In this document: piece after piece, positions 32,091-41,198 of the stretch
Layout: each line of letters starts with the position of its first letter
Position numbering within the stretch: the first letter of the stretch is position 1
NCBI RefSeq assembly: GCF_003315205.1
Contig: NZ_QNRR01000002.1
Location: 590,881-654,880, forward strand
Direction of reading: 5' to 3'
Source: Roseimicrobium gellanilyticum
GTDB lineage: Bacteria > Verrucomicrobiota > Verrucomicrobiia > Verrucomicrobiales > Verrucomicrobiaceae
Length of the DNA: 64,000 bases
The notes under the pieces: generated by a model
Told to the model about the DNA's origin: nothing
Seen by the model: the letters and a program-made list of their open reading frames with translations, nothing else
Databases searched by the model: none
Translations under genes and position numbers: made by a program

Positions 32091-33512
32091 TCACCCTCTC
32101 GCCACATCCATGCCGAAGTAGGCATGGGCGTTCGCGTAGCAGATGCGCTTCACCATGCCGCCCACCAACTCGTAGTCGTCCGGCACGAGGCCATTCTCCA
32201 TGTCGCGACCAATGAGGTTGCACAGGATGCGGCGGAAGTACTCGTGACGGGGAGGGGAGAGGAAGCTGCGTGAATCCGTGAGCATGCCCACGAAGTGGCT
32301 GAGCAGTCCGGTGGAACTCAGCGCATTGATCTGCCACTCCATGCCTTCCAGGCAGTCGAGGAACCACCAGCCGCTGCCGAACTGCAGGCGCCCTGCGACG
32401 CCGTTCTCATTGCCCTGATAGTTCCCGATGATGGTGGAGAAGATGTAGTTGTCCTTCGGGTGCAGATTGTAGAGCACCACCTTGGGCAGGTGACCGCGCT
32501 GCTCCAGCGTATCCAGATAGAAGCGTAGACCCTGCGCATGCGAGGGATCATCAATCGAGTCGCAGCCGATGTCGCGGCCCAAGCTCTTGAAGAGACGGGC
32601 ATTTGTATTGCGCAGCGCCCCGAGGTGGAGCTGCTTCGTCCAGCCTTTCTCCGCATCGAGCTGGCCAAAGTACAGCATCAGGTAGGAGCGGAAGCGCGTG
32701 ATGGCCTCGGCCGAGAGAGCCTTGCCCGCGCGTGCCTGGTCGAAGATGGACTTCGCCTCGGCATCTGTCGCCGTTTCCGTGTCCATGTTCGTGAGACCAT
32801 GGTCGCTGAGACGTCCGCCGATGGAGTGGAAAAAGTCATGCCGCTGGCGGATGCCCTGCAGGAAGGAGTCGAGCGTATCGCATGCCTGTCCCGTGATGCC
32901 AGCGAGCTTGTCCACCCACGTATTCCACGCGGGCACATCTTCCAGACGCATGCCGGCATCCGGGCGGAACGTGGGATACACTTTCACGGGGAAGTCGCTG
33001 AGCTTCGCCACTGCCTGGTGATGCTCCAGCGTGTCCGTGGGGTCATCCGTGGAGCACACCACGCGCACGTTCGAGCGGGAAAGCAGATTCCGGCAGGAGT
33101 ATTCCGGTGTGGCGAGTTGCTCATTGCAGCGGTTCCAGATGCTCTCTGCCGTCTTTTCGTTCAGCGGCTCATCGATGCCAAAGAAGCGTTTCAGCTCCAG
33201 AGCCGTCCAGTGGTAGAGAGGATTGCGCAGCGTGTGCGGTACCGTCTTGGCAAAGGCGAGGAACTTTTCCTTCCACGGCGCATTGCCTGTCACGTGGCTC
33301 TCCGGGATGCCGTTGGCACGCATGGCGCGCCACTTGTAGTGGTCCCCGCCCAGCCAGATGTGCGCGATGGTCTCAAACTTCTGGTCCCGCGCCATCTCAT
33401 CCACCGGCAGGTGGGTGTGGTAGTCGTAGATCGGCTCATTCTCGGCATACTCATGGTAGAGCCGCCGCGCAGCCTTGGTCGTGAGGAGGAAGTCGTCGTG
33501 AATCAGAGACAT
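32091..33512 (-). CDS. uxaC: Glucuronate isomerase
   Basis: 473 residues, the normal length of UxaC, which interconverts D-glucuronate and D-fructuronate (and galacturonate/tagaturonate). Conserved blocks are visible: YDYHTHLPVDEMARD (metal-binding HxH) near residue 30, HWTALELKRFFGIDEPL near 100, VCSTDDPTDTLEHH near 150, LHLGALRNTN near 290, GCDSIDD near 315, KVVLYNLHPKDNY near 345, and GMLTDSRSFLSPPRHEY near 425. TIM-barrel amidohydrolase-related. It starts at the ATG 33512. The usual partners uxaB/uxuA are absent here, but the window also holds a PL6 polysaccharide lyase. Confidence 0.96.
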   Translation of the reverse strand: MSLIHDDFLLTTKAARRLYHEYAENEPIYDYHTHLPVDEMARDQKFETIAHIWLGGDHYKWRAMRANGIPESHVTGNAPWKEKFLAFAKTVPHTLRNPLYHWTALELKRFFGIDEPLNEKTAESIWNRCNEQLATPEYSCRNLLSRSNVRVVCSTDDPTDTLEHHQAVAKLSDFPVKVYPTFRPDAGMRLEDVPAWNTWVDKLAGITGQACDTLDSFLQGIRQRHDFFHSIGGRLSDHGLTNMDTETATDAEAKSIFDQARAGKALSAEAITRFRSYLMLYFGQLDAEKGWTKQLHLGALRNTNARLFKSLGRDIGCDSIDDPSHAQGLRFYLDTLEQRGHLPKVVLYNLHPKDNYIFSTIIGNYQGNENGVAGRLQFGSGWWFLDCLEGMEWQINALSSTGLLSHFVGMLTDSRSFLSPPRHEYFRRILCNLIGRDMENGLVPDDYELVGGMVKRICYANAHAYFGMDVARG

Positions 33513-33664: not shown

Positions 33665-34381
33665 CTACGGCTTTACTTCCACGTCCAGGACCCTCCATTC
33701 CCCGGAAGCCGTGCCCACTTCACCATGCTGGGTAAAGAGATTTGTGCCTTCGCCCATGTCCTTCATTGGCACTGCTGTCCCAGACTTGGAGTCCAGAGGT
33801 TGGATTCCCACACTGCTGTCGTTCATCCCGATAATGATACCCGAGGACCAGGCTCGCCCGCGTGTCTCAGTTCCCTTCGCGTCAGGGTTCCACATGGGCG
33901 ACCATGCCGTGACGACTGGGTTTTCATAAACAAGAGGAACGCTTCCAGAAGCACTATCGGATAGTCCCGCCGTCATGGCCCAGTGATTCTCGCCGGCTTC
34001 GAGCGCCTGCTGGAAGTCGGGTGCCGCTCCAACCTTCCCATCAGGAATAAAGGGGCTCACCGGGCAGCCAAAGATGTGCTCACTCTCATCGTCGAAGATG
34101 CCTTCCTTGAACAGTTCCCGGAAGACTTCATTGGAACTGCGAGGGTTCTTCAAGAAGGAATCAGGATATTTGCCATCATGGTCGGAAGAATAGATGCGCA
34201 ATGCTGTGATGATCTGGCGGCAGTTGGAAATGCCCTTGTCCATCTTGTTGTGTGGACTGCGGATTACCAGGGGAAGCGCCAGCAAGATCAGAAAGATGAG
34301 CAGAAGGAACGCCACGATTCCGGCCACCATCTCCGGCCAGGTGAGCACCCGTTTTCTGCTCGTGGTCGGTCCTTCTCTCAT
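33665..34381 (-). CDS. Pseudopilin-like protein, array member 5
   Basis: 238 residues from MREGPTTSRKRVLTWPEM. One membrane helix (MVAGIVAFLLLIFLILLALP, about 18-37) is followed by ISNCRQIITALRIYSSDHDG and KYPD, the block that follows the pilin helix in Verrucomicrobia pseudopilins. Then come FGCPVSPFIPDGKVG, AGENHWAMTAGLSDS, VYENPV, and GMNDSSVGIQPLDSKSGTAV. The prepilin cleavage motif (G-F-T-L-x-E) is missing. Last gene of a five-gene tandem family. The stretch 33724-33830 is almost identical in DNA to 34491-34597 of the next member, which points to recent duplication or gene conversion of that part. Confidence 0.7.
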   Translation of the reverse strand: MREGPTTSRKRVLTWPEMVAGIVAFLLLIFLILLALPLVIRSPHNKMDKGISNCRQIITALRIYSSDHDGKYPDSFLKNPRSSNEVFRELFKEGIFDDESEHIFGCPVSPFIPDGKVGAAPDFQQALEAGENHWAMTAGLSDSASGSVPLVYENPVVTAWSPMWNPDAKGTETRGRAWSSGIIIGMNDSSVGIQPLDSKSGTAVPMKDMGEGTNLFTQHGEVGTASGEWRVLDVEVKP

Positions 34382-34434
34382 TCGTCTTTTGGATTGCTGT
34401 TGAGTTTGGGAGCCAAATTCCGGCTGGCAGTTCT

Positions 34435-35133
34435 TCAGGGCTTCACTTCCACGTCCAGAATTGTGAACCCCGTAGAGACGGACGAATCTCCATGCTGGGT
34501 AAAGAGATTTGTGCCTTCGCCCATGTCCTTCAGTGGCACTGCTGTCCCAGACTTGGAGTCCAGAGGCTGGATCCCCACGCTGCTGTCGTTCATCCCTACG
34601 ATGACACCACTGCTCCAGGACCTTCCCCGCGTTTTTGTTCCTTTGGCATCGACATTCCACTTTGGTGACCAGGTGGCGATGACCGGATTTTCAAACACCA
34701 ACGGAATGCTTCCTGAAGCACTATCGGACAGTCCGCTCGTCATGGCCCAGTGGTTTTCTCCGGCTTCGACGGCTTGCTTGAAGCTTGGTGCTTTGCCAAT
34801 GTCTCCGTCAGGAACAAACTGGCTCATGGGGCAGCCCAACATCAACTCATTGTCGATGATGTTCTTCTGGAACAGAATTCGGAAGACCTCATTGGAGCTT
34901 TGCGGATTGGCCAGGGCGGCATCCGGATACTTTCCTCCGTGATCCGATGAGTACATTCTCAGTGCGGTAATGATCTGACGGCAATTCGAGATGCCAATCG
35001 TGATGTTACCCCTCTTCGAAATGCGTCCAAAGGTGGGAATGAACATGGATGCGAGCAGGCAGGCCGCAGTCAGGACCACCAGAATGTGCAGGCAGCCAAA
35101 GCGAGAGCGGTTCGGTTTTATGACATCACTCAT
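34435..35133 (-). CDS. Pseudopilin-like protein, array member 4
   Basis: 232 residues: MSDVIKPNRSRFGCLHILVV opens a membrane helix (about 14-33), then GISNCRQIITALRMYSSDHG and KYPD, FGC-like LGCPMSQFVPDGDIG, AGENHWAMTSGLSDSASGSI, and NDSSVGIQPLDSKSGTAVPL. Same layout as its neighbours. The start ATG overlaps the stop of the broken member 3 by four bases (ATGA), so it was probably translated by coupling to that gene and may be expressed less well since the stop codon arose. The gap to member 5 is 53 bases. Confidence 0.7.
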   Translation of the reverse strand: MSDVIKPNRSRFGCLHILVVLTAACLLASMFIPTFGRISKRGNITIGISNCRQIITALRMYSSDHGGKYPDAALANPQSSNEVFRILFQKNIIDNELMLGCPMSQFVPDGDIGKAPSFKQAVEAGENHWAMTSGLSDSASGSIPLVFENPVIATWSPKWNVDAKGTKTRGRSWSSGVIVGMNDSSVGIQPLDSKSGTAVPLKDMGEGTNLFTQHGDSSVSTGFTILDVEVKP

Positions 35134-35825
35134 TTTTCTTCAATATCTAGGATCTCACCCGTCGGAAAGGCGGTTGGGTCTATCGCTGCCTCGAAAAGGT
35201 CCTTCCCATGCACCTTCTTCAGAGGCACTGCCGTCCCTTTCATCGTTTCCAGTGGTCGAAGCGAAACCGAGCTGTCATTCATTCCAATGATGACGCCCTT
35301 GCTCCATGACCGACCGCGCACACCGGTCCCCTGAGCGTCGGGGTTCCACACGGGGGGCCAGGTCGCCTTGGCCGGATTCTCAAAGACCAGCGGAATCTCG
35401 CCCGGGGCACTATCCGAAAGTCCCTCCGTCATCGCCCAGTGATTCTCTCCTGCTTCGACGGCATGGGCAAACTGAGGTCCTTCTCCGATGTTTCCATCGG
35501 GAACAAAGCGGCTGACAGGACTACCGAAAGTCGATTCGTTATCGACGATCTTCTCCTGAACCAGCACCCGAAAAACTTAATTCGAGCTCTGCGGGTCAGC
35601 CATCGCTGCGTACGGATAATTGCCGTTATGATCGGCGGCATAGGTGCGCAGAGCATTGATCACGTGACGGCAATTCTGAATGCCCTTGGTAAGGTTGCCT
35701 CGTGCGCTGATTTGCCCACACCGGGGAATGAACTGGCTGGCGACCAGGACAAAGGCAACCAAGGCCACCGTATTGCGGAAGATGGACCACCAGGGATTCT
35801 TTGAGCGAGGAGGTTCTTCGAACAT
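35130..35825 (-). pseudogene. Pseudopilin-like protein, array member 3, with internal stop
   Basis: The full frame has 231 codons of family sequence with a TAA at codon 83 (35579-35577). The five paralogues read S-S-N-E-V-F-R or equivalent there, and here the DNA is AAT TAA GTT; a single change from GAA (Glu) to TAA explains it. Before the stop: membrane helix and IQNCRHVINALRTYAADHNG; after it: FGSPVSRFVPDGNIG, AGENHWAMTEGLSDSAPGEI, and GMNDSSVSLRPLETMKGTAV. Both halves are otherwise intact, so the change is recent or an assembly error. A GTG at 35567 could restart the downstream half. Stop overlaps the start of member 4. Confidence 0.75.
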
Positions 35826-35834
35826 CGGGTTTGT

Positions 35835-36515
35835 TTAATCCACATCCAGCACCGCACTTTCCGTGAGCGTTGCGGGATCCATGGTCACTTCAAAGGAGTC
35901 CTTCTCTTCCGTGTCTGTGCCGAAGTGCTTCCTCAAGGGCACTTCCGTTCCTTTCTTCAATGCCAATGGATGAAGCGAGACACTCGAGTCATTCGAACCC
36001 AAGATGACCCCGCCTCTCCATGAGCGGCCTCGCGTAGGTGTCCCTCGGGCGTCCAGATTCCACGCAGGTGGCCAGGTGGCGATGGCGGGATTCTCGTACA
36101 CCAGCGGCGCGTATCCGGTGGCACTGTCATCGAGACCGGCTGTCATCGCCCAGTGATTCTCTCCTGCTTTCAAGGCCTCAGCGTGGTTGGCGTCATCACC
36201 AATGTTGCCATCAGGCACGAATGGACTGAGGGGGCAGCCAAAGATCCGTTCGTTGGTGACGATGTCCTCCTTGAACAGGATGCGGAAGACTTCGTTCGAG
36301 CCTCGCGGATTTGCCAGAGATTTGTCCGGATAGTCTCCACCATGGTCCGCGGCATAGGCGCGCAGTGCGGAGATGATTCTCCTGCAATTGGACACGCCTT
36401 CCTGGATACGGTTCTTCTCCATGATTTCTGCAGGGCTGGGAGCAAGCCGCAGGACGATGAGCGCAGGCACCAAAAGGCCGAAAATGACTGGCATGCACGA
36501 TGCTTTCGATTTCAT
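35835..36515 (-). CDS. Pseudopilin-like protein, array member 2
   Basis: 226 residues from MKSKASCMPVIFGLLVPALI, a short membrane helix right at the N-terminus (about 7-25), then GVSNCRRIISALRAYAADHG and DYPDKSLANP, FGCPLSPFVPDGNIG, AGENHWAMTAGLDDSATGYA, NPAIATWPPAWNLDARGT and NDSSVSLHPLALKKGTEVPL. A longer upstream frame reaching 36605 overlaps member 1 and is not believed. The gap to the next member is only 9 bases. Compared with members 4 and 5 its C-terminal loop carries an insertion (HFGTDTEEKDSFEV). Confidence 0.7.
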   Translation of the reverse strand: MKSKASCMPVIFGLLVPALIVLRLAPSPAEIMEKNRIQEGVSNCRRIISALRAYAADHGGDYPDKSLANPRGSNEVFRILFKEDIVTNERIFGCPLSPFVPDGNIGDDANHAEALKAGENHWAMTAGLDDSATGYAPLVYENPAIATWPPAWNLDARGTPTRGRSWRGGVILGSNDSSVSLHPLALKKGTEVPLRKHFGTDTEEKDSFEVTMDPATLTESAVLDVD

Positions 36516-36522
36516 GGGGCTC

Positions 36523-37212
36523 TTACTCCACATCCAGCACCTCACCCTTCGGGAAGGTCGTCGGGTTGATGGCCGCCTCGAAGGCATCCTTCCCGCTGGA
36601 GGCATCGGGCTTCAACCCCACGGCTGCGCCACTCTTGGCAGCCATGGGTTGCGAAGCCACGGCAGTGTCATTCGTTCCGATGATGACGGTGTTATTCTTC
36701 CACGTGCGACCACGGACGGGTTTCTCTTCCACATCAGCATTCCATTTGGGAGGCCATGTGGCGTTTACCGGATTTTCATAAACCACGGGAATGGCCCCTG
36801 CCGAGGAGTCATTCAGCCCTGCGGTCATGGCCCAGTGATTCTCGCCAGCCTGCACTGCCTTCCCATACTTCGTGGACTGAGGTCCGATATAGGCGTCTTC
36901 GATCTTGCCATCGGGCTCGAAAGGACTGGGCGGACACCCGAAGATCGCTTCGTTGTCGAGGATTTGCTCCTCAAAGAGCTGGCGAAACGCTGCGTTGGCC
37001 GTCTTTGTCCCATTGATGTGGGCGTCGGGATACTTGCCGTTGTGGTCCGAGGCATAGATGCGCAATGCCACCAGGATCTGGCGGCAGTTTGAGATGCCCT
37101 TGGTGATCTGGCTTCGCTCGGAAATTCGGTCACATGCCACCGTTCCCAGCAGCGTCACTGCCAGCAATCCCACGCCATACTCCACCTTGGTAAATCTCGA
37201 CCTGCCTTGCAT
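36523..37212 (-). CDS. Pseudopilin-like protein, array member 1
   Basis: 229 residues: MQGRSRFTKVEYGVGLLAVT and a membrane helix with a Cys at its end (LLGTVACDRI, about 18-28), then GISNCRQILVALRIYASDHN and KYPDAHIN, FGCPPSPFEPDGKIE, AGENHWAMTAGLNDSSAGAI and GTNDTAVASQPMAAKSGAAV. The most divergent member: an insertion around DAYIGPQSTKYGK and N-D-T-A-V for N-D-S-S-V. First gene of the tandem array, 61 bases downstream of an orphan histidine kinase on the same strand. Its LLGTVAC segment could be read as a lipobox, though it is not a strict one. Confidence 0.7.
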   Translation of the reverse strand: MQGRSRFTKVEYGVGLLAVTLLGTVACDRISERSQITKGISNCRQILVALRIYASDHNGKYPDAHINGTKTANAAFRQLFEEQILDNEAIFGCPPSPFEPDGKIEDAYIGPQSTKYGKAVQAGENHWAMTAGLNDSSAGAIPVVYENPVNATWPPKWNADVEEKPVRGRTWKNNTVIIGTNDTAVASQPMAAKSGAAVGLKPDASSGKDAFEAAINPTTFPKGEVLDVE

Positions 37213-37273: not shown

Positions 37274-39322
37274 TCACACTCCATTCACATTTACCCGCAC
37301 ACTTGCTCCTTCTCCGGGTCTGCTGCTCACCTCCAGCTCCGCGCTAATCTTCCGGGCCCGCTCCTGCATGCCGCGAATGCCAAAGTGACCATCCATTGCC
37401 TGGGCTGCAGTCAGGTCGAATCCCTTGCCGTCATCGGAAATGGTGAGCGCAAGCGTCTCTACAGCTTCATCTCTGGAGAGCTGGACACGGACACTTCGAG
37501 CCTGCGCATACTTCAGCGCATTATTCACCGCTTCACGAGTGATGCGCAGCAGGTGGTGTTGTACGAGAGGCGGTACTTTCAGATCCGTGACGTCGCTCTC
37601 GAACTTGAGCGGGACGGTGGTATTCACCTGCAGGTGTTCCACCAGTGAGCGGAGTGAGGCATCCAGCGGTGCGTCTTGTCGTGAGGCATCACGCAGATCC
37701 CACACGAAGTCCCGTGTGTCCGTTTGCAATCGCCCGAGCAAACGGCGCTGCTGGTCGAGCAGGTCATGAGCCTTCGCATCCGCCACCCGTGGCAGGGCGG
37801 CATCCAGCCGCAGGGACAGCCCTGCGAGCTCCTGCTCCAGTGTGTCATGAAACTCCCGGGCGATGCGCTGGCGTTCTTCCATGATGGCTTCGCGCTGGGC
37901 CTTGGCTTCGATCACTGTGAGCTGTCGCGACACCTGGCGGCGCAGCAGGGCGATCCAGATCAAGGCGAGCAGTGCCAGCGTCATGGCTCCGCCGAAGGCG
38001 AGCCCGATCCGCTCGGAGTTCCACCACGGGGTGCTCTGCAGTATCACCACATCTCGCGCATCACGCAGCCACAGGCGGTATGCGGTGGGCTTGGCGCGAT
38101 AGCCGTCACTGCGCGTTGCAGTCACTCGTGCAAGGCCTGTCAGGCGCAGCAGCGCTCCGCTTTGCACCTCACGTGGCAGAAGGGTGGGGGAGGTGACGTT
38201 GATGCTCACCGGCCCTGTTTGCGTCACCAGCTCCGTAGTGTGGTCACGGTCGGTGCGCTGTGCGACCTGCACCTCCAGAGTGATCAATTCCGCATCACGC
38301 CCATCCTGCAGGCCACCAGGATTCTCCGGCGTCGGTGCAGGCACCGCTTCAGTGCCCACCACGCGACACTCGGCCTCGGTAAGATGAGCGCTGAAGACGC
38401 CCATCTCGGGGAATCCCAGCGCCTCCACCACGTCACCAGCCTTGATACCCGTGTCATCCGTCTGCACAAAGACGCTCTCGTCGCCTTGCCTTAGGAAAAG
38501 TCCTCCCGCCAAGGGCGCACTGAGCGCCACGCCTTGTACCTTCACACGGTGGGCCCGTGAGATCGCGCGTTGCAACTCGGGCAGCGGTATCGGTGGTGAC
38601 TCGAAGGCCTCAGGCGGTGCAGATTTGATGAGTTCCACATCGTCGATGCTGCGCACGCGGATGTATGGCGCTACCAGCTCCCGCCGGTCATTGATGTCAC
38701 CTGCGGCGAGACCCCGGATGCGCAGCTCCGCGTCCACCCAGGGCGGGAGTTCCGTGGGGACTTCATCGAACCGTACCTCCACCACCTTCGCGCCGGTGAG
38801 CAGCCGCAGGGTGAAGGCGTTTTCTCCCACCCGATGGAGTGAGCGTCCGACTCCGGAGAGGGTCACGTAGTGGTAGTGGTACCTTCCGGAGGCCAGGTCA
38901 TCCTGCGTGATCTCTTTCGGTGCTGGAGGCGGCTCATACCGTCCAAGAAACTCGATGGTTTCAGGCTTGATGCCTCCAATGATCAGGCCGTTGTGAGTGA
39001 CTCCGCTTACCCGAAGGCGCGTGCCAATGGCCGGTCGCGGATTGGACTTGGCTGCCCGAATGAAGGTCACACCGGTATCATCCTGGAGGAAGATGGTGTT
39101 CCCCGGGTCCAGGAAGGTCACGACCGCATCCAGAGAAACCGCTGCTGGGTCACCGTCCTTTGGCGTCACATGCGCGGCAATGTCGCGTGCCGTGGTGAGT
39201 GTCTGGGCGGCCGCCTGCTGCGCAAAGAGTACTGCCACAGCCACGACACCCGCGAGCAACGCCCTGTGGAGGGAGGCGCAGCGGCGGTGAGCCTGCGGAC
39301 AATCTGGCGAAGACAGGGGCAT
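37274..39322 (-). CDS. NarL-type sensor histidine kinase with OB-fold-like sensor
   Basis: 682 residues. Signal or membrane helix near the N-terminus (HRALLAGVVAVAVLFAQQAA), a large extracytoplasmic part of about 380 residues with repeated OB-like strands (for example NTIFLQDDTGVTFIRAAKSN and GGLFLRQGDESVFVQTDDTG), a membrane helix at about 445-465, then a HisKA_3 domain with the phospho-acceptor His492 in REFHDTLEQELAGLSLRLDA, and a HATPase domain (REAVNNALKYAQA, ISDDGKGFD, HFGIRGMQERA). Usually followed by a LuxR-type response regulator; none is next to it. A start at 39364 is less likely. Ligand unknown. The downstream tandem array may be cotranscribed with it. Confidence 0.93.
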   Translation of the reverse strand: MPLSSPDCPQAHRRCASLHRALLAGVVAVAVLFAQQAAAQTLTTARDIAAHVTPKDGDPAAVSLDAVVTFLDPGNTIFLQDDTGVTFIRAAKSNPRPAIGTRLRVSGVTHNGLIIGGIKPETIEFLGRYEPPPAPKEITQDDLASGRYHYHYVTLSGVGRSLHRVGENAFTLRLLTGAKVVEVRFDEVPTELPPWVDAELRIRGLAAGDINDRRELVAPYIRVRSIDDVELIKSAPPEAFESPPIPLPELQRAISRAHRVKVQGVALSAPLAGGLFLRQGDESVFVQTDDTGIKAGDVVEALGFPEMGVFSAHLTEAECRVVGTEAVPAPTPENPGGLQDGRDAELITLEVQVAQRTDRDHTTELVTQTGPVSINVTSPTLLPREVQSGALLRLTGLARVTATRSDGYRAKPTAYRLWLRDARDVVILQSTPWWNSERIGLAFGGAMTLALLALIWIALLRRQVSRQLTVIEAKAQREAIMEERQRIAREFHDTLEQELAGLSLRLDAALPRVADAKAHDLLDQQRRLLGRLQTDTRDFVWDLRDASRQDAPLDASLRSLVEHLQVNTTVPLKFESDVTDLKVPPLVQHHLLRITREAVNNALKYAQARSVRVQLSRDEAVETLALTISDDGKGFDLTAAQAMDGHFGIRGMQERARKISAELEVSSRPGEGASVRVNVNGV

Positions 39323-39399
39323 GGTGGGACAACTCTTATCCCACCAAAGCACAAGCTGCCACACCTGGGTAGTGCGATGACTGGCACCGCCGAAGCGGC

Positions 39400-39660: not shown

Positions 39661-39815
39661 GGGAGTAGATAAGGTTATCGCATGCTCTGACCGGACATCC
39701 GGTCCCACGTTGAATCGTTTCGCGTGTTTTACATGGCCTCATCACGTGAAGTTCTCCTTTTGTGGGAGGGGGAGGCTGTAAGTGCGGTGCTGTCAGCCCC
39801 GTATTCGGAGGAAGC

Positions 39816-41198
39816 ATGCATCGCCGCCTCTCCCTCCTCCTTGCCATTGGTGCCGTCGTTCTCGGGTTTTCCCATTCTTCATCTGGTGCCGACTCGGACA
39901 GGCACGTCATTCTCATCAGTGTGGACGGCCTGGCCCACTACTACTTCGAAGACCCGAAGGCGGAGATGCCGACCATCCGGCGCCTGGCCGCAGAGGGGGC
40001 TCGCGCGAAGCACATGACCACCTCCCTGCCCACCGTCACCTGGCCGAACCACACCACTCTTGTCACGGGTGTGCATGCAGGGAAGCACGGCGTGATAGGC
40101 AATGACTTCTTCGATCGCAAAGAGCAGAAGGTGGTGGCTTACATCCCAGACCCCGTTTTCAACAAGGATGAGATCGTCAAGACACCCACCATCTATGACG
40201 TGGTCCATGATGCCGGGATGAGTACGGCTGGCATCTGCTGGCCTGCCTCCCGTGGCGCCAAGTCCTGGGACTGGACCATTCCTGATGTTTTCGACCAGGC
40301 GACCTTCGAGCAATACAGCACGCCTTCACTGTTGGCAGAGTGTCGTGAAGCGGGCATCCCCTTCGAGAAACAGAATGAGTGGTGCAAGGCCGGGACCGCT
40401 GGCAAACCCATGCGCGACTGGCTGTACGCCAATCTCGCCTGCCACATCATTCGCAAGCACAAACCCAAACTCATGTGCCTGCACTACATGAGCGTGGATG
40501 GTCTGCAGCATGGCTACGGCAGCAAGACTCCCGAAGCCTACTGGGCCATCAATGACTCAGACAACCGCATTCGCCAGGTGGTGGAGGCGGTGGAGGACGC
40601 CGGTCTCAAGGACAAGACGACCTTCGTCGTGACAGCGGACCATGGCTTCATCACCTACAAGAAGCGCATTCAGCCGAATGTGCTGCTCAAAAAGGAAGGA
40701 CTCATCAAGGCCGCCTTGGGAAACAAAGTCACCGAGCGTCGCGTGTGGTGCCACGCCCAAGGGGTGGCGTACATCTACATCCTGGACCAGGCGAATCGTG
40801 ATGCCCTGTTGAAAGACCTGACTCCGAAGCTCGCAGCGCTCGAAGGCATCGAGGAGGTGATTGAAGAGAAGGACTTCGCCAAGTATGGTCTGGAGACAGC
40901 AGCCAAGGACCCGCGCATGCCAGACCTGATTCTCTCCCCCAAGGATGGATACGTCATCGGTGGCGACGTCGGTGGCGATGAGTTGGTGGTTGCCGCAGAT
41001 GCGCCCAAGGGGGCGCATGGCTACTCCCCGGCAAACCCACTGATGGATGCAAGCTTCGTAATCAGCGGCGCGGGCATCAAGAAAGGGGTGATTATTGACA
41101 AGATGGCCAACATCGATGTGGCTCCCACCATGGCGAAGCTACTCGGCGTCGAAATCAAGGGTGCGGACGGTCGCGTGCTCACGGAGGTGCTGAAGTGA
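39816..41198 (+). CDS. Secreted nucleotide-pyrophosphatase/phosphodiesterase-like enzyme
   Basis: 460 residues from MHRRLSLLLAIGAVVLGFSH, with GGAGGA five bases upstream of the ATG. After the signal peptide (about 1-26) comes the alkaline-phosphatase-superfamily core: metal Asp in VILISVDGL, nucleophile Thr in the TVTWPNHTTLVTGVHAGKHG block, second-site ligands in MSVDGLQHGYG and TADHG, and a final His in GAHGYSPANPLMDASFVISG. These residues match the type I phosphodiesterase/nucleotide pyrophosphatase (NPP) family, acting on phosphodiesters or possibly glycan phosphates. It overlaps the following PL6 lyase gene by four bases, so they are translated together. Confidence 0.92.
   Translation: MHRRLSLLLAIGAVVLGFSHSSSGADSDRHVILISVDGLAHYYFEDPKAEMPTIRRLAAEGARAKHMTTSLPTVTWPNHTTLVTGVHAGKHGVIGNDFFDRKEQKVVAYIPDPVFNKDEIVKTPTIYDVVHDAGMSTAGICWPASRGAKSWDWTIPDVFDQATFEQYSTPSLLAECREAGIPFEKQNEWCKAGTAGKPMRDWLYANLACHIIRKHKPKLMCLHYMSVDGLQHGYGSKTPEAYWAINDSDNRIRQVVEAVEDAGLKDKTTFVVTADHGFITYKKRIQPNVLLKKEGLIKAALGNKVTERRVWCHAQGVAYIYILDQANRDALLKDLTPKLAALEGIEEVIEEKDFAKYGLETAAKDPRMPDLILSPKDGYVIGGDVGGDELVVAADAPKGAHGYSPANPLMDASFVISGAGIKKGVIIDKMANIDVAPTMAKLLGVEIKGADGRVLTEVLK

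Follow-up and report, generated by a model that had tools for sequence, protein, structure and literature searches.

The window, a 64,000-nucleotide stretch of the genome of the soil bacterium Roseimicrobium gellanilyticum, carries a tandem array of genes that, by their homology, are descendants of pseudopilins of the type IV prepilin family. The best overall explanation, which we regard as probable, is that a prepilin family has expanded in tandem and lost its signal, and that its heads are now uncleaved, membrane-tethered, and non-polymerising. More tentatively, and with rather less confidence than we would give an even case, we suggest that Verrucomicrobiaceae repeatedly turn a filament-forming prepilin into uncleaved, non-polymerising tethered heads, which then multiply, diverge, and become joined to other membrane domains; such pilin-derived envelope proteins would form a functional class that is new. 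A pilin family is defined by its cleavage and assembly signal; here that signal decays while the head remains constrained, apparently more than once.

Five consecutive paralogues occupy positions 33665 to 37212 on the minus strand (Table 1), with intergenic gaps of 7, 9, −4, and 53 bp, the negative value being a 4-bp overlap (ATGA) of copies 3 and 4. The paralogues are 48–56% identical to copy 1, and a hidden Markov model search of the genome recovers the array copies with E-values of 1e-94 to 1e-124, which rules out chance resemblance among them. They share the blocks ISNCRQI, FGCP-x-S-x-F-x-PDG, AGENHWAMT, ENP, NDSSV, and GTAVPL, and a single hydrophobic helix lies at the N-terminus of each intact copy. 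A reading of the letters alone (the sequence-only reading) had described five tandem paralogues; the run of five on one strand, the shared blocks, and the gaps stand, but the in-frame stop and altered FGCP block of copy 3 indicate one interrupted gene and no intact fifth copy, leaving four intact genes. The listed open reading frames of copies 2 and 5 are over-long, with likely starts at 36515 and 34381. Assembly genes are absent from the neighbourhood of the array in the window. In copy 1 and its orthologue the helix ends in T-V-[AS]-C-D, which by eye is weakly lipobox-like, so that an alternative anchor is possible for this copy.

Table 1. The array, its flanking genes, and the distant regulator (window coordinates, except for the regulator; −1/+5, residues at the canonical register, read by eye from alignments)
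Feature	Position	Strand	−1/+5	Remarks
uxaC, glucuronate isomerase	32091..33512	-		directly downstream of array; position kept in sister genome
Copy 5 (238 aa)	33665..34381	-	V/E	N-terminus VLTWPEMVAGIV; Glu5 kept
Copy 4 (232 aa)	34435..35133	-	R/H	RFGCLHILVVL; structure predicted
Copy 3, interrupted	35130..35825	-	W/R	in-frame TAA; FGCP changed to FGSP
TAA stop within copy 3	35577..35579	-		in frame; GAA in sister-species orthologue
Copy 2 (226 aa)	35835..36515	-	ambiguous	N-terminus MKSKASCMPVIFGLL; prepilin signal unrecognisable; start picked by homology
Copy 1 (229 aa)	36523..37212	-	R/E	N-terminus MQGRSRFTKVEYGVGLLAV; Glu5 kept; relic of GFTLIEL
Histidine kinase, HisKA_3/HATPase_c (NarX/NarQ-like)	37274..39364	-		directly upstream of array, 61 bp
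Probable response regulator of window kinase	G000:C2:726824-727450			outside window

The array genes matched no Pfam or NCBIfam family at cut-off, and PHROGs gave nothing usable for them; sub-threshold matches to GspG and CbtA were set aside. A family profile built from the four intact copies detected three further members in the same genome. The N-terminus of one of these (C3:581086) is a perfect prepilin sequence, MKTRLQQGFTLIELLVVITIIAILASLAVPTFGRIQ (QGFTLIELLVV), and a class III prepilin signal of textbook form (MKTRLQQGFTLIELLVV; GFTLIELLVV) is found in family members of other Verrucomicrobiaceae. The heads of the array proteins align over their full length with those of the canonical members, and the AGENHWAMT core is a signature of the entire family, canonical and signal-less alike. 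The pseudopilin reading is correct as ancestry, since family members, one of them in the same genome, have a canonical signal. The search against pilin profiles that the sequence-only reading had proposed separates the two states: the C3:581086 paralogue is the genome's best match to N_methyl (PF07963), and the array genes have no match to it.

The family was found in 50 of the 57 relatives searched, and strong matches are nearly confined to Verrucomicrobiaceae in a phylum-wide draw. Next to the canonical paralogue, in the two same-genus genomes as well as in several other genera, is an Amidase_3 (N-acetylmuramoyl-L-alanine amidase) gene, and this locus is conserved in at least six relatives. 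No publication on this AGENHWAMT pilin-like family turned up in our literature searches. Some members have GYF_2-DUF4190 in place of the prepilin N-terminus; in GYF_2-DUF4190 membrane proteins (L134, L137, L071, L076, and L018) the membrane segment is followed by all or part of the pilin-like head (e.g., L018:1045-1905, L134:453-1568, and L137:448-1617). Two other proteins of the R. gellanilyticum genome contain pilin-like head fragments without the AGENHWAMT core, one with several membrane helices (L017:1201-2082) and one with a possible signal peptide (L019:1246-2733). Across the whole genome there are 43 N_methyl prepilin matches and 15 matches to secretin domains, but a single prepilin peptidase gene was detected (C4:576119-576808).

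Canonical and signal-less states were assigned by a motif rule of our own. Among canonical members, 68 of 71 have Gly or Ala at −1 and Glu at +5, with −1 exactly 38 residues before the SNCRQ block. This pair, the class III signal of type IV pilins and pseudopilins, is kept in no array copy. G-F-T-L-x-E is likewise missing from all of them, as had been noticed from the letters alone, and relics survive in copy 1 (RFTKVE) and copy 5 (VLTWPE). The two residues never occur together in the array of the sister genome either, its copy 8 having G/Q. A signal-less N-terminus common in other genera, KKGWGCLQWGVV, lies at the same register and keeps Gly-1, with Glu5 replaced by Gln. Cleavage may still occur in many Prosthecobacter-type copies and one sister copy, which retain Gly-1 (GWGCLQW). 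The idea that GWGCLQW is a general membrane-anchor module was ruled out, the motif occurring in the nine genomes searched only in family members and at the GFTLIEL register.

Gly-1 is critical for prepilin processing (PMC4471445), whereas Glu5 is dispensable for it; Glu5 mutants form no homopolymers, yet can co-assemble with wild-type subunits (PMC4471445; PMC5059446). In the mechanism we propose, the single hydrophobic helix would insert each copy N-in/C-out and place the head in the periplasm, as homology and flanking charges suggest. With Gly-1 replaced by Arg, Val, or others, the prepilin peptidase would be unable to cut most copies, which would therefore stay in the inner membrane as tethered heads and would not polymerise. 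We think it likely, though speculative, that these heads bind some ligand or protein partner, possibly the filament of the canonical paralogue. The proposal that the array encodes working secretion or surface pseudopilins is not supported, the defining signal being lost in every copy. Weak-signal copies might instead enter the filament of the canonical paralogue as minor (pseudo)pilins, diversifying its surface or priming assembly. Such a role would suit the co-assembly of Glu5 mutants (PMC4471445), the retention of Gly-1 in several related-genus copies and in sister copy 8, the match between array and canonical heads, and the presence of a peptidase gene and secretins in the genome; we nevertheless judge it distinctly unlikely, given that copies 1, 3, 4, and 5 have replaced the residue critical for processing, that the helix, which forms the core of a filament, is diverging fast in sequence, and that no assembly genes neighbour the array.

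Comparison with the sister genome (a single contig of 7,957,748 bp, the only other same-genus genome examined) reveals eight array copies, flanked like the window's five by this kinase and uxaC. Window copies 1, 3, 4, and 5 pair as orthologues with sister copies 4, 5, 6, and 8. From these sequences the array is a genus-level, lineage-specific tandem expansion, as the sequence-only reading had anticipated; the copy count in related genomes that it proposed yields these eight copies, along with the family's presence in most relatives. An identical tract of 43 bp is common to copies 4 and 5, which are 91–95% identical in local windows; 21 of 20,000 shuffles gave a run as long as their 13 identical codons, a result that suggests gene conversion between them. 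On sequence evidence, the set of copies turns over as genes duplicate, undergo partial conversion, and decay through nonsense mutation.

Constraint on the array proteins is the reverse of that on the canonical paralogue. For the canonical gene, identity between the orthologues of the window and sister genomes is 96% over the N-terminus and 75% over the head, whereas the array orthologue pairs share 31–56% of N-terminal and 66–77% of head residues. In pooled counts, N-terminal identity between the two genomes is 43/45 for canonical versus 84/185 for array residues (Fisher p = 6e-11), and head identity is 138/183 versus 519/733 (p = 0.23). Head dN/dS lies between 0.06 and 0.15 for orthologue pairs with estimable dS, a rough range since several dS values are near saturation; the identity contrast is independent of it. 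By this comparison of sequences, the array heads are under purifying selection, and the signal and helix have been released. Were the array simply decaying debris, redundant prepilin duplicates on their way to becoming pseudogenes, the nonsense codon in copy 3, the unequal copy numbers of the two genomes, and the lost signal would all be expected. The low head dN/dS, the four intact genes here and eight in the sister genome, and the retention of orthologous copies at corresponding positions make that account very improbable.

The step from canonical to signal-less appears to have been taken repeatedly, in several genera of Verrucomicrobiaceae. On a head-only tree of 114 rows the signal-less label requires at least nine changes; a head-only tree of 41 rows requires at least seven, four of them forced by well-supported branches, and the AU test on a head-only tree rejects a single signal-less clade (p = 3.2e-6). 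Within a genus, signal-less heads tend to cluster with the canonical ones. An appearance of repeated loss could also arise if heads undergo gene conversion within each genome: there may have been one ancient signal-less lineage, with conversion against the canonical gene in each genome making the repeated losses an artefact. GWGCLQW is common to two genera whose heads cluster by genus, and the shared tract and local identity of copies 4 and 5 also fit such a history. We consider it fairly unlikely, as no long canonical–array identical tract was found (the longest exact run reported is 26 bp), the array N-termini differ from GWGCLQW, and the relics of copies 1 and 5 differ from each other. The question concerns history only, and a single ancient loss would be compatible with the uncleaved, tethered heads that we propose.

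The structure predicted for copy 4 by AlphaFold from 25 family rows (pLDDT 90.7) has a 52-residue helix (residues 11–62) and a beta head, so that the modelled chain shows the helix and C-terminal beta head of a type IV pilin or pseudopilin. Foldseek returned no match to this model at E < 0.001. In a second look (VIA), type IV pilins filled the top five of seven rows, with Z scores of 3.0–5.6, and the best solved-structure match was PilA4 of Thermus thermophilus (Z 5.6, 3.5 Å over 117 residues). A model of the head alone (pLDDT 93.9) had no match among solved structures with Z ≥ 2, and in a sequence search of solved structures pilin matches were restricted to the helix. The expectation that the structure would resemble pilins is thus upheld for the full-length model, but not for the head by itself, and the structural case is one of helix and overall arrangement. 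We regard this model-based evidence for a pilin fold as moderate; the argument is carried by the sequence link to the canonical members.

The kinase upstream had been called an orphan. No response regulator lies beside it, and the kinase–regulator adjacency of a NarL-type two-component regulon is not found for it in the window genome, but a probable cognate regulator is encoded elsewhere. In Verrucomicrobium (genus inferred), the kinase orthologues (51% identity) have the same divergently transcribed genes on their flanks, and they overlap the gene of a NarL-type regulator by one base. The best match to that regulator in the window genome (76%; next best 53%) lies about 97 kb from the kinase, and the corresponding match in the sister genome about 103 kb; sequence comparison makes this distant NarL-type regulator the probable cognate of the window kinase. 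The Verrucomicrobium operon is accordingly split in the window's genus, the kinase remaining with its flanks and the regulator lying apart (L161:6660-9409; L173:8822-9643), and the array occupies the place where the regulator would be. A scar was sought at the relocated regulator, where the neighbours merely differ. The kinase–array adjacency is conserved in both same-genus genomes and permits co-transcription; it provides no evidence of regulation, scans for promoters and terminators did no better than chance, and control of the array by the kinase, as once suggested, is unsupported.

Several further features were observed in passing. A paralogue of the window kinase with an in-frame TAG (G000:C12:86651-88687) adjoins a NarL-type regulator (C12:85992-86606), and two adjacent, near-identical sugar phosphate isomerase-like genes (L173:6606-8789) lie downstream of the relocated regulator. 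In the window, a type I phosphodiesterase gene (39762-41198) lies beside one for a chondroitinase-B-type lyase (PF14592, 41195-42523), a pair conserved beside the kinase in Verrucomicrobium.

Annotation based on the signal misses a set of pilin-derived proteins, and the array offers a clean test of the role of a pilin head without a filament. Among known systems, the type IV pilins and type II secretion pseudopilins (GspG/PulG, PilA) resemble the array in their long N-terminal helix and beta head, as predicted in the model; the family members with canonical N_methyl signals are homologous to it, and the best solved match is T. thermophilus PilA4. Unlike them, the array lacks the Gly-1/Glu5 pair, an N_methyl match, and nearby assembly genes, its helix is variable, and its family-specific head (AGENHWAMT...NDSSV) has no solved relative. 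SBP_bac_10/DUF1559 prepilins of Planctomycetota and Verrucomicrobiota share, by eye, a late DGxV/NDSSV-like block and, following the helix, an NCRQ/NLRQI-like one; the window proteins differ in having no PF07596 match, one distant relative matching below threshold (E = 0.0094). The GYF_2-DUF4190 membrane proteins of Verrucomicrobiaceae, unlike the array, are multi-domain and wholly lack a prepilin-type N-terminus; like the array, they carry the pilin-like head or part of it.
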